64,000 nt of DNA, taken from NCBI GenBank assembly GCA_035487355.1, contig DATHMF010000022.1, positions 62,001 through 126,000 on the forward strand, read 5' to 3'. Source of the DNA: Terriglobales bacterium (GTDB lineage Bacteria; Acidobacteriota; Terriglobia; Terriglobales; Acidobacteriaceae). The position numbers were made by a program, and so were the translations under genes. Positions 1 to 3,477 of the stretch are shown piece after piece (the first letter of the stretch is position 1; each line of letters opens with the position of its first letter). The notes under the pieces were generated by a model that worked only from the letters and a program-made list of their open reading frames with translations, ran no database searches and had not been told where the DNA came from.

Positions 1-98
1 AGTTTACTCAAAACTGGCGGATGGGCACTGCGGTCAGACACTACCGTATGCTCACCCCATCCACCTGCCACCTCTGGTTTAATGACACAGTATTCCAT
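1..98 (-). CDS. Probable immunity protein, cut by the window edge
   Basis: An ATG (bases 98-96, minus strand) opens a frame that runs without a stop to base 1, giving 32 codons that begin MEYCVIKPEVAGGWGEHTVV. An AAGGA ribosome binding site lies six bases upstream, and the start is 30 bases after the stop of the toxin-like gene. Position and spacing fit an immunity gene directly behind a polymorphic toxin. From memory, the 'PEVAGG.GE.TV.D.S.HPPV.SKL' pattern resembles small proteins encoded next to Rhs-type toxins with the same C-terminal domain. The rest of the gene lies outside the window, so family and function are inference. Confidence 0.6.
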   Translation of the reverse strand, partial: MEYCVIKPEVAGGWGEHTVVSDRSAHPPVLSK

Positions 99-128
99 TG
101 AGATTCCTTATATCATGATTCCAGCTAG

Positions 129-1724
129 TTACTTGGGTGGCTTAAACTTCGAGCGAAACTGCGCATCAATTTCTGCAACTTTCTGCAAGAATTGTTCACG
201 TGTCGGATTTGGATTTAATTCATAAAACTCGTTCAACTTCTGTCTTATTTGGCTGAGGTGCAGGTCAGGATTAAGCTCCTTTGGGATGCCGCGCAGGTTC
301 TCCAGGGCATGGATTTCTTCCTCCGTGAAAAGGCCGGGAAATTTCCTTAGAACTTGTTGTTCGATAGCGTGGTGGACCCAGACTTTTCCTCTAAGTTCTG
401 GGTGAGCCTTAAAGAAGGTCTCACGGTAGTTAGTGGAAGGCGCCTCCTTTTCCTGCAGCATCGTTGGCCTTTGCTCCGAAGCGATTTCCGGCTTTGGCGA
501 TGTGCCCTCTGATATTTTGCTAACTGAAGGAACGTCACTGGTAGTAGTGGTTACACGTGGAGCAACATGATAAACGTCGGCTCCATCGCCGACTTTGGAA
601 AGTGCACTTCCGGCGCCTTTCGTGACCAGGCTTACCGGGTTAGGGATGAAGCTTCGCTCCGGCGCCATTGACATCGCTTGCCCAATGCGCGAAATCCCCT
701 TACCTGCCATCGTGGGCAAATCGTTGGTCTGGGCGTCTTCATAGAGCCCGCCAATCAGCGGACCGACCAGGGGCAAGCCGGCTGCAGCGGAATTGATAGC
801 AACGCCCGTGTAGTCGCCTTGTTGCCCTGCTTGCTCTGCGCGGTCAATGTTCGCGCGAGTTGCGTCGTAATACCCTTTCGCGGCACGCCCCACTGTAGTG
901 AGGCCAGTTGTGTAGGCTCCGGCTTGCAAGCCTTGGCTGATAGCTTCCCCTAAAGTTTTGGGCCTCTGGTCTATAGGGTGAAGCATGAAATCTGGCGGCT
1001 TAACCAGAGAGCCAACGCCCTTGGCAGCTTCCCAGATGTCTTTGCCGGCTCCGGCGGCAGTGCGCATCTCGGCGTTATCAATTGCATCATTGAGATCGAG
1101 AAGTTGCTCCCAGGTAGACTTTTGCGGTTGCGGGGGATTTACACGCACACCTCCGATGTCGGAAAAATCATTCGACGTCGCCGGCGTTGCTTGGCGTTGT
1201 AGCTGAGTCGGCGTGATGGACGTGTGTCCACTAGGTCCAGTGACACGCTGTCCTCCTATGTCGCTAAAATCGAATAGCCTTGTCTCTGGCGCAGGCCACT
1301 GTTTAAGCCAGTCAGGAGGGTCTTGCAGGGCGCGCGCACCCATGTCCCCAAAGTCGCTGAAAAAGCCCCCGGATGGCAGTTGTCCACCAGCCTCCCCGAC
1401 CCTCTGTCCTCCAATGTCGCTAAAATCCAATGGCGTTGTTTGCTGATTTTCACTTGCTGAGACACCGGCACTCTGTGGCTGTCTCGATGTCGCAGTAGCT
1501 GTAGTAGTCGGCCACTCTTTCAACCACCCCGGATGGTTCTGTACGGAAAGCGGCCCCAGATCGCCAAACCCGCTGAAAAATCCCCCGGATGGCTGTTGCG
1601 CATCAACTCGGCCGACGCGTTGCCCGCCCAGATCAGAAAAATCAAATTCTTGCACTGGCGGTGGCGCAACCCGCTGTCCTCCAATGTCGCTAAAATCCAA
1701 TTGCTCTTCTTGCCCATCTGGCAT
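129..1724 (-). CDS. Repeat-bearing protein with C-terminal polymorphic-toxin nuclease-like domain
   Basis: 531 aa, with GTAGGAG upstream of the ATG. The N-terminal 200 residues are low-complexity and carry five copies of DFSDIGGQRV (residues 10, 28, 100, 152 and 186) and two larger units ending in WLKEWP and WLKQWP (28-72 and 100-144). The middle (about 215-380) is Ala/Gly-rich with a 'GLPLVGPLIGG' stretch, as in some phage virion proteins. The last 90 residues (VWVHHAIEQQ at about 449-458, LRGIP, LHLSQIR, then NEFY) match, from memory, the C-terminal domain of many Rhs and other polymorphic toxins, thought to be of the HNH/endonuclease VII type with catalytic His pair H451-H452. There is no signal peptide. 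It is the last large gene of a minus-strand operon and is followed by a probable immunity gene. Nuclease activity is inferred. Confidence 0.75.
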   Translation of the reverse strand: MPDGQEEQLDFSDIGGQRVAPPPVQEFDFSDLGGQRVGRVDAQQPSGGFFSGFGDLGPLSVQNHPGWLKEWPTTTATATSRQPQSAGVSASENQQTTPLDFSDIGGQRVGEAGGQLPSGGFFSDFGDMGARALQDPPDWLKQWPAPETRLFDFSDIGGQRVTGPSGHTSITPTQLQRQATPATSNDFSDIGGVRVNPPQPQKSTWEQLLDLNDAIDNAEMRTAAGAGKDIWEAAKGVGSLVKPPDFMLHPIDQRPKTLGEAISQGLQAGAYTTGLTTVGRAAKGYYDATRANIDRAEQAGQQGDYTGVAINSAAAGLPLVGPLIGGLYEDAQTNDLPTMAGKGISRIGQAMSMAPERSFIPNPVSLVTKGAGSALSKVGDGADVYHVAPRVTTTTSDVPSVSKISEGTSPKPEIASEQRPTMLQEKEAPSTNYRETFFKAHPELRGKVWVHHAIEQQVLRKFPGLFTEEEIHALENLRGIPKELNPDLHLSQIRQKLNEFYELNPNPTREQFLQKVAEIDAQFRSKFKPPK

Positions 1725-1736
1725 GGAGTATTGCTC

Positions 1737-2300
1737 CTACCTGCCTAGGACTCTTAGGCCCGGATCGCGCTGCAGCGCCTTGCCCAGGTTCTCGTGCGGA
1801 ATGTCATGAATTCCGCCCCGCGAATCCTGAAAACGAACCATTCCCTGTACTGGTGCTCGCATGGCTCCGTTTTGCGGTCCGCTGAGCATCGCCGTTCTCC
1901 CCGCCAGGAGTGGACTATTCTGACGCAGCCCACCGTGCCCCATTCCCGTATTGGGCATCGGCCCTGTGCTTCTCAGCCCGCTTCCTAAAAGACCGCTGCC
2001 TGTGCCCAACCTCGTACCGGTATTCAGGCCGCCTCCTAAAACGCCAGCCCCAAGTCGCGGGCGTGGACTCGCCAATCCACTGCCCAAAGTATTCGTACCG
2101 CCGTCGATAACTCCCGTTCCGGGTTGGGCCCGTTTGCTCTGCTCGAGCAGATACCGCCGCATGGCGATATTCAGCAGTGCCGGATTCGTGCCATAGAGCT
2201 CGCCCGGCGGCGGATAGTAGCTGGGCAGAGGCTGAGTTCCGGTCTGCTGCGCTGGTCTAGGCCCTTGGCTTAGTGGGTTCTTTCCAAATGTCATTGCCAT
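1737..2300 (-). CDS. Low-complexity Gly/Pro-rich protein, phage-structural-like
   Basis: 187 aa. The N-terminus is Pro/Gln-rich. A Gly/Leu/Thr-rich middle repeats short 'LGSGL', 'LGAGVLGGG' and 'LGTGSGLLGSG' units. The C-terminus (MVRFQDSRGGIHDIP, then LQRDPGLRVLG) is a compact segment of a type seen at the ends of phage-like proteins. It ends 12 bases before the toxin-like gene, and its start overlaps the upstream 57-aa gene by 44 bases, so the two are co-transcribed and probably translationally coupled. No enzymatic motif is visible. A structural or adaptor role for the downstream toxin-like protein is a guess from context. Confidence 0.65.
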   Translation of the reverse strand: MAMTFGKNPLSQGPRPAQQTGTQPLPSYYPPPGELYGTNPALLNIAMRRYLLEQSKRAQPGTGVIDGGTNTLGSGLASPRPRLGAGVLGGGLNTGTRLGTGSGLLGSGLRSTGPMPNTGMGHGGLRQNSPLLAGRTAMLSGPQNGAMRAPVQGMVRFQDSRGGIHDIPHENLGKALQRDPGLRVLGR

Positions 2301-2430
2301 AATTCATGTCCTGCCATAATTCCATGACGCCCGCTTTATACTTCTCCCAGCACTCTGAACAGAGAGAGAAGAAATAGGGATATTGCTCGGTATCGGTGAT
2401 CTGGTCGCAGTCAGTGCAAGCCCCAAGCAT
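2257..2430 (-). CDS. 57-aa zinc-ribbon-like protein
   Basis: A short frame beginning MLGACTDCDQ and ending EPTKPRA. It has two CxxC pairs (C5/C8 and C24/C27) separated by 15 residues, as in a minimal zinc ribbon. The ATG has a strong site (GAGGAG, seven bases upstream). The gene overlaps the end of the 96-aa gene by 20 bases and the start of the 187-aa gene by 44 bases, so it sits nested in a translationally coupled operon. Cys pairing, a clear ribosome binding site and overlapping placement support a real gene. Zinc binding is inferred from the Cys spacing and the target is unknown. Confidence 0.6.
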   Translation of the reverse strand: MLGACTDCDQITDTEQYPYFFSLCSECWEKYKAGVMELWQDMNYGNDIWKEPTKPRA

Positions 2431-2701
2431 TTTTTAGCTCCTCTACGGCCGAATCTGCTTTTCGTGGCGATGGGTTTTCCCACACAAGCTCTAATTTCCG
2501 CGTCCGATGCTTCTGCTTCCTCGCCGGCTTGCTCCGCTTCTCGGGCGCCGGCTCTTCGACCGCAACTTTCTGCGTGGAACACTGCCGGCAATATTTCTCT
2601 TGTGTCCCGACCTGGCGCGTGAAATTGCGGGCGCACCATTCACAGGTTTTTAGCTCGTAAGCAACAGCCGGCGGCGCGGATGGGGAATAAGTGGGAATCA
2701 T
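2411..2701 (-). CDS. Zinc-ribbon protein with basic tail
   Basis: 96 aa. Residues 20-41 form a zinc-ribbon pattern (CEWCARNF, then KYCRQCS). It is followed by a Lys/Arg-rich stretch (about 52-70) typical of nucleic-acid contact and a short acidic/helical end. The ATG overlaps the TGA of the upstream 119-aa gene in an ATGA arrangement (2698-2701), so the two are translationally coupled. The family is not recognised. Zinc and nucleic-acid binding are inferred from composition. Small zinc-ribbon genes of this kind are common in phage and integrative-element operons. Confidence 0.65.
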   Translation of the reverse strand: MIPTYSPSAPPAVAYELKTCEWCARNFTRQVGTQEKYCRQCSTQKVAVEEPAPEKRSKPARKQKHRTRKLELVWENPSPRKADSAVEELKNAWGLH

Positions 2702-3057
2702 CGTGGCAAGCCCTTCGTGGCAACTCGCGTTGCTTTGTCGTCTTGTTCAAACGGCCATGCGGAGATCTTTTCTGCAATTCGTTTGAGGCGGTGGCTTTCT
2801 TCCTTCCCGTCGCTGTGCAGCACCTGCGCAAGTGCATGAAGCTCGGTCTCCTGGCTGGTAATCGAGCAGTTTGTACGCTTGGGATTCTTTTGCAGTGCCC
2901 GGAAGCGCATGACCAATTTGGGATCCTTCAACCGGGAAATGCGTCGGACTTCACCCAGCTCTTCAAGACGGGCAGCTTCGGTTTTGCTTATGTAGATCAT
3001 TGGCTTGGGACCGCCGTTGATCGAATAGATGGGAACTCTGTTAGCGTGGCGTGACAA
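2698..3057 (-). CDS. Hypothetical protein, first gene of the accessory operon
   Basis: 119 aa, starting at TTG (bases 3057-3055) with AGGAG eight bases upstream. No ATG occurs earlier in frame with a comparable site. The N-terminal part (VPIYSINGGPKPMIYISKTEAARL) looks like a short beta hairpin followed by a helix. The middle is rich in Arg and Lys (RRISRLKDPKLVMRFRALQK), suggesting nucleic-acid contact. It has no signal peptide or membrane segment. It is coupled by a 4-base overlap to the zinc-ribbon gene. The family is not recognised, and a DNA-binding or regulatory role is only a possibility from charge and position. Confidence 0.6.
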   Translation of the reverse strand: MSRHANRVPIYSINGGPKPMIYISKTEAARLEELGEVRRISRLKDPKLVMRFRALQKNPKRTNCSITSQETELHALAQVLHSDGKEESHRLKRIAEKISAWPFEQDDKATRVATKGLPR

Positions 3058-3282
3058 AGTGTATCTCCTGGGGCTTTCGTGTTATCCAAGGTGAAAATAA
3101 GAACAAGGCTGGCAGGGCAGGTTTTGAACACACCTCTCCCTGCCAGATGGCCGTTGCGCACAGCAGGGGCGGAGGATTGCGCCCGCGAGGTTAAGGTCCG
3201 CTTACGACGACCGCAGCCGGTGGCCCGGCCACGGTCGTCATCGGTGTCCAAGGAGAATATGAAAATCCCTTAACCTGGATCA

Positions 3283-3311
3283 TTTATCGCATACGCGATT
3301 TATGATGTAAA
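3283..3311 (-). promoter_or_regulatory. Promoter overlapping an inverted repeat (probable operator)
   Basis: Reading the minus strand, TTTACA (3311-3306) and GATAAA (3288-3283) are spaced by 17 bases, a fair match to -35 and -10 boxes. An imperfect inverted repeat with 11-base arms, 9 matching (TCATTTATCGC at 3280-3290, GCGATTTATGA at 3295-3305), fills the spacer and -10 box, where a repressor would block polymerase. It lies about 220 bases upstream of the TTG of the first operon gene. Call made by eye. Confidence 0.4.
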
Positions 3312-3477
3312 CCTTTTGGTGCCACAGTGATACCACACGCGAAAATAGGCCGCATTTTGCTTGATTGTATTGGGAAATTGGACCATCATGAATCCGGATT
3401 ACGCCCAGCATTCCAGAATGCGGGGCGAAGGGTGAGCGTGACGACCCTGAGCGCAAGCCAGGGGAAGCAGTGCGGAG

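Follow-up and report, generated by a model that had tools for sequence, protein, structure and literature searches.

So far, the MuF head protein is almost the sole carrier for which phage-borne polymorphic toxins have been described: temperate phages, mainly siphoviruses of Firmicutes, encode carriers in their packaging region that bear toxin tips and are accompanied by immunity genes (Jamet 2017, PMC5576092; Bxa, PMC11699363). Polyvalent virion proteins likewise fuse effector domains in proteins thought to be packaged and injected, although they combine a large number of anti-host domains, and an immunity gene downstream is not part of their definition (Iyer 2017, PMC5512222). Among bacterial systems, Zhang et al. 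listed Imm11 as the partner of Tox-AHH and Tox-SHH (PMC3482391), and MXAN_0049 of Myxococcus xanthus is the immunity protein of the AHH nuclease MXAN_0050 (PMC12077131; PMC6627406), which degrades DNA in vitro (PMC12077131) and whose carrier is a T6SS/PAAR system. No report of polymorphic toxins on internal virion or ejectosome proteins was found in the open-access literature.

Here we describe a locus of a Terriglobales bacterium in which the tip of a 531-aa protein and its 143-aa neighbour form a toxin–immunity cassette. The window, that is, the whole stretch of 64,000 nucleotides that was analysed, corresponds to C22:62001-126000 of a 5.4-Mb draft genome, and the contig was extended leftward from it. 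The genes form an operon on the minus strand, which is read from right to left in the following order.

2698..3057, minus strand: gene that opens the operon, whose head is present a second time, truncated, near C22:60600
2411..2701, minus strand: small Cys-rich (zinc-ribbon-like) protein of the same operon, with no significant family
1737..2300, minus strand: 187-aa gene, 12 bases upstream of the toxin gene, carrying the 'SYYPPPGELYGTNPALLNIAMRRYLL' module
129..1724, minus strand: open reading frame of the carrier-toxin gene, 531 aa, with a phage-type body (residues 1-429) and a toxin tip (430-531)
438..1724, minus strand: carrier body, residues 1-429
1668..1700, minus strand: repeat 1, LDFSDIGGQRV, at residue 9
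1614..1646, minus strand: repeat 2, FDFSDLGGQRV, at residue 27
1398..1430, minus strand: repeat 3, LDFSDIGGQRV, at residue 99
1242..1274, minus strand: repeat 4, FDFSDIGGQRV, at residue 151
1140..1172, minus strand: repeat 5, NDFSDIGGVRV, at residue 185
132..437, minus strand: toxin tip, residues 430-531, with the pattern VHH-x23-N-LRGIP-...-H-x4-R-x6-FY, assigned by identity to Rhs/WXG100-type tips and by an AF2 model
104..109, minus strand: ribosome-binding site AAGGAA of the immunity gene, read from the sequence
1..98, minus strand: start of the immunity gene, which extends left of the window; the complete gene is C22:61667-62098 = L002:17667-18098, 143 aa

The 531-aa frame starts with an ATG behind the ribosome-binding site GGAG and occurs as a single copy in the host genome. 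Its N-terminus is repeat-rich and apparently disordered, with five near-identical copies of LDFSDIGGQRV (0 in 20,000 shuffles) and a further pair of repeats, ~26 aa each, at residues 47 and 119. The double DFSDIGG pattern, searched as DNA in viral contigs, gave one match, which is the chance level, so that the repeat is not a known common phage tag. Pfam, NCBIfam and PHROGs returned no family for the whole protein or for the tip, the body matched no recognisable virion family in Pfam or PHROGs, and no relative of the body was found in IMG/VR or in 100 related genomes; its placement among virion proteins therefore rests on genome context. A hydrophobic N-terminal segment is absent, the top 19-residue hydropathy window (1.4) lying at residue 307. 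These results agree with an earlier note made from the letters alone, which had described a repeat-rich frame that is not Rhs, has no signal peptide and follows small zinc-ribbon genes; zinc-ribbon-like Cys pairs are indeed present in the 2411-2701 gene and in a short Cys-rich frame near 2258-2430.

The phage-like character that the same note had ascribed to the protein is borne out by genes outside the window. To the left of the cassette and on the same strand are encoded a terminase (E 2e-24), an 868-aa portal-size protein, a scaffold-size protein, a major head protein (E 5e-8), virion proteins, a virion transglycosylase, an endolysin (E 6e-47) and an integrase (E 1e-26). With terminase, capsid, integrase and lysis genes in one cluster, this is a tailed-phage prophage of ~40 kb (C22:24.6-65 kb), with ordinary chromosomal genes on either flank. 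A search for direct repeats of at least 14 bases between the flanks searched gave no attachment sites or prophage ends, and no replication or repressor gene was recognised in the prophage, so the element may be defective. When the carrier, the immunity protein, the capsid and two other phage carriers were compared with GenBank phages by tblastn, no match was obtained; the portal control of the same search returned 177 records, which shows that the search itself works.

The 187-aa gene is probably co-transcribed with the toxin gene, and its product has three copies, all inside this prophage. A weak match to its 'SYYPPPGELYGTNPALLNIAMRRYLL' module is found in each of three successive prophage proteins, one of them the virion transglycosylase; by analogy with T7 gp14-16, these three may be internal virion proteins. 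A 435-aa protein (L002:5286-6593, minus strand) with N-terminal PPLPAGYKLD repeats directly follows another 187-aa copy, with the gene order of the toxin unit and without this tip. A second toxin-like candidate of 624 aa (L002:8205-10079, minus strand = C22:52205-54079) matches the 187-aa proteins at its N-terminus and is followed, with a 4-base overlap, by a signal-peptide gene (L002:7672-8208, minus strand); neither product matched a known family. A leader of ~300 bases precedes three prophage transcription units (window 3050-3400; L002:15880-16095; L002:16680-16910), its copies being 78-94% alike in parts; it is possibly a shared late promoter or 5' leader, and Rfam gave no match for it. 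A phage structural cluster homologous to the prophage was also seen in several genera of another family of the order (L043, L044, L045 and L046 in G060, G066, G061 and G064, respectively), where it adjoins genes resembling hom/thrB of the threonine pathway; the constancy of this site points to a domesticated prophage or gene-transfer agent.

The motifs HHAIEQQ, LRGIP and LHLSQIR, which the note had likened to the nuclease tips of Rhs toxins, all lie within the final 102 residues (430-531). This tip has a G+C content of 46%, against 57% for the carrier body, and is 46-64% identical to the C-terminal tips of Rhs and WXG100-type proteins and 51-57% identical to translated plasmid DNA of Streptomyces and Photobacterium. 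In bacterial genomes, it ends large Rhs proteins in Cohnella (64%) and Nonomuraea (56%), lies in Lentzea (46%) on an open frame of 2,110 aa whose pre-tip is Hint-like, and is carried by a protein with a WXG100-like domain (E 1e-12) in Psychromicrobium (47%). The proposed match to Rhs tips thus stands on sequence searches, while Pfam and NCBIfam hold no family that covers the tip. It was absent from the 298 other genomes of the class, this genome being alone among 299; the AHH and Imm11 families were found in none of 61 genomes of the class, in a search whose controls were also silent.

The HH, E, NLRG and FY residues are invariant across 11 tip homologues, and the H of HLS is nearly so. In the AlphaFold (AF2) model of the tip (mean pLDDT 89.9), HH and LRGIP are predicted to lie on strands and H-x4-R on the long helix that follows, giving a beta(HH)-beta(LRGIP)-alpha layout. 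Such an arrangement, with HH on a strand and H on a helix, is expected of a His-Me-finger nuclease. The tip shares the order HH...N...H...Y with Tox-AHH (PMC3482391) but has VHH where that family has [AG]HH, is not matched by the Pfam AHH profile, and gave a negative hhalign comparison with the domains of the four AHH genes of the phylum; Foldseek against the PDB returned nothing significant, the top entry being the HNH nuclease SspE (E 0.7). Nuclease activity is likely from the order of the residues, the layout of the model and the family to which the immunity protein belongs, and the tip is probably a small HNH/AHH-like DNase; of the toxin nuclease tip proposed in the note, the toxin part is supported by the match to Rhs proteins, whereas the nuclease part is still inferential. 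In another genome of the phylum, an AHH nuclease gene is followed by a frame resembling Imm11 (L063).

The note had also pointed to a frame with its own ribosome-binding site thirty bases downstream that resembled an immunity gene. The ATG of this frame, behind AAGGAA, is exactly 30 bases past the 531-aa stop, and the frame runs off the window; in the extended contig it is a complete gene. Its product matches phrog_32682, of unknown function (E 1e-55), and its best Pfam family is Imm11 (PF07791), below threshold at 17.0 bits against a cut-off of 22.1. A homologue 55% identical to it was modelled by AlphaFold (pLDDT 92.5), and Foldseek matched this predicted structure to 6A4C, the structure of MXAN_0049 (E 8e-4, probability 1.00, TM 0.59 by query length), so that the modelled homologue is predicted to have the Imm11 fold. 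The neighbour, a small protein, is thereby linked by predicted fold to a proven immunity protein, in line with the note's reading of it.

Immunity homologues accompany the tip elsewhere. They lie directly 3' of it in Photobacterium, Cohnella, Psychromicrobium and Lentzea, that is, in four of the five bacterial loci where the tip is intact and its neighbour can be read, as well as in four phage contigs (L048, L050, L052 and L053, the tip of L053 being frameshifted). The exceptions are Nonomuraea, with a SUKH-like gene in the immunity position, and Streptomyces L008, where the tip is broken and an annotated SMI1/KNR4 gene takes this place. Orphan homologues occur in Paraburkholderia and in a cassette-array-like stretch of Vibrio THAF190c, and one lies within an S-pyocin immunity cluster on a V. 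campbellii plasmid. The identity to Rhs/WXG100 tips, the conserved downstream neighbour and the fold match of the homologue to 6A4C together establish the toxin–immunity cassette. Directly after the immunity gene, a DUF416 gene (E 1e-16; L002:17038-17634, minus strand) is possibly a further immunity gene of an array.

With immunity homologues as query, six IMG/VR contigs were recovered, in which the tip–immunity pair is found on two other phage carriers unrelated to one another. In L048 and L050, it stands at the end of ~780-aa phrog_37988 proteins, which weakly resemble the phrog_992 'head protein' (E 4e-12 and 9e-15); the L050 pair is inside a prophage with a portal resembling that of podovirus BcepC6B. 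In L052, it is carried by a different, 548-aa protein with NPFDQFD repeats at its start, near a virion structural protein (E 1e-31). The tips of L053 and L055 are broken, and upstream of the latter two frames (L055:5002-8290) resemble RadC/JAB domains by eye, possibly from a polyvalent virion protein. Extra immunity copies occur in L049, L050 and L051; two to three tandem homologues, some broken, lie behind decayed carriers of related prophages (L049:5106-6621, L051:4611-5543, L050:9506-10396).

A polymorphic toxin system is recognised by a conserved body with exchanged tips and by arrays of immunity genes. In L050 and L051 there are further copies that align with residues 1 to ~510 of the L048 carrier but have other C-terminal ends, so that one carrier bears different tips; this was not seen for the body of the 531-aa protein, which has no homologue. 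One tip is found on Rhs proteins, on WXG100-type proteins and on at least three unrelated phage carriers, and apart from Nonomuraea and Streptomyces L008 the immunity gene directly downstream is conserved with it.

Compared with the known systems, the locus resembles MuF toxins in its temperate-phage carrier, variable C-terminal toxin, adjacent immunity gene, position in a packaging/structural region and proposed delivery with phage DNA. Unlike them, neither the 531-aa carrier nor the other phage carriers found contain the MuF domain (PF04233) according to Pfam, and at least one related element has the BcepC6B-like podovirus portal. MuF identity was accordingly rejected for the 531-aa protein, though it may work alike. 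It shares its tip, and mostly the downstream immunity family, with the Rhs and WXG100/T7SS toxins of Cohnella, Nonomuraea, Lentzea and Psychromicrobium, whereas their carriers are bacterial secretion-system proteins and this one sits in a prophage.

We consider it probable that the locus is a polymorphic-toxin cassette of a temperate phage, with a DNase-like tip, an Imm11-fold immunity protein and a virion-type carrier, delivered by particles or lysis. In the lysogen, the immunity protein would hold the tip harmless; upon prophage induction, the fusion protein would be made along with late genes, its N-terminal body serving as the virion-type carrier, which would probably be built into particles or released at lysis. 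Because the protein lacks a secretion signal and its gene lies among those for virion proteins, it would most likely leave the cell within the particle, or failing that through lysis; for packaging in, or ejection from, the virion as such, we judge the chances to be about even. The tip would then enter other cells together with phage DNA, where recipients without immunity would suffer DNA damage and carriers of the immunity gene would survive.

Three other explanations have to be weighed. The same cassette could sit on a carrier that is not part of the virion, is freed by prophage lysis only and acts in a bacteriocin-like manner, its repeats binding a receptor or uptake route; this fits a body without a recognised virion family, its repeat-rich, apparently disordered N-terminus and the immunity homologue in an S-pyocin cluster, but Pfam finds no pyocin or colicin translocation domain in the 531-aa protein, related cassettes lie on proteins within phage structural clusters and the gene upstream of the toxin has a module common to virion proteins, and we regard it as unlikely. 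More doubtful still is a role of the pair within the lysogen itself, as a module for addiction, abortive infection or superinfection exclusion, with the tip set free only upon loss of the immunity protein or when an infecting phage disturbs the balance. The two genes are neighbours on a mobile element whose own delivery of the toxin is putative, yet the same tip is used on export-type proteins (Rhs and WXG100), and toxin-less orphan immunity genes are common, which fits defence against incoming toxin and not addiction. It is very improbable that the gene is a decayed passenger, i.e., a chance fusion of a phage gene with a laterally acquired Rhs tip in a defective prophage with no present function, since the intact frames with good ribosome sites, the full set of catalytic-type residues and the same arrangement on other phage carriers speak against it, despite the lower G+C of the tip, its absence from the 298 other genomes, the att repeats and replication genes not found, and the truncated duplicate of the operon head.

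On the reading as a phage cassette, the phage particle may deliver the toxin to unprotected cells. Phage-borne polymorphic toxins are already known from MuF, but the carriers described here lack the MuF domain. We tentatively propose, as an idea somewhat short of probable, that internal or ejected virion proteins of podovirus-like temperate phages form a second, MuF-independent class of polymorphic-toxin carrier, which gained the same Rhs-type nuclease tip and Imm11-like immunity independently, and that competitors which are not lysogens are killed or arrested by their particles, lysogens being marked as kin. The recurrence of one tip–immunity pair on several phage carriers that are unrelated suggests a general use of virion proteins as toxin vehicles; if true, this would explain the orphan immunity genes of this family in prophages, integron-like arrays and pyocin clusters.
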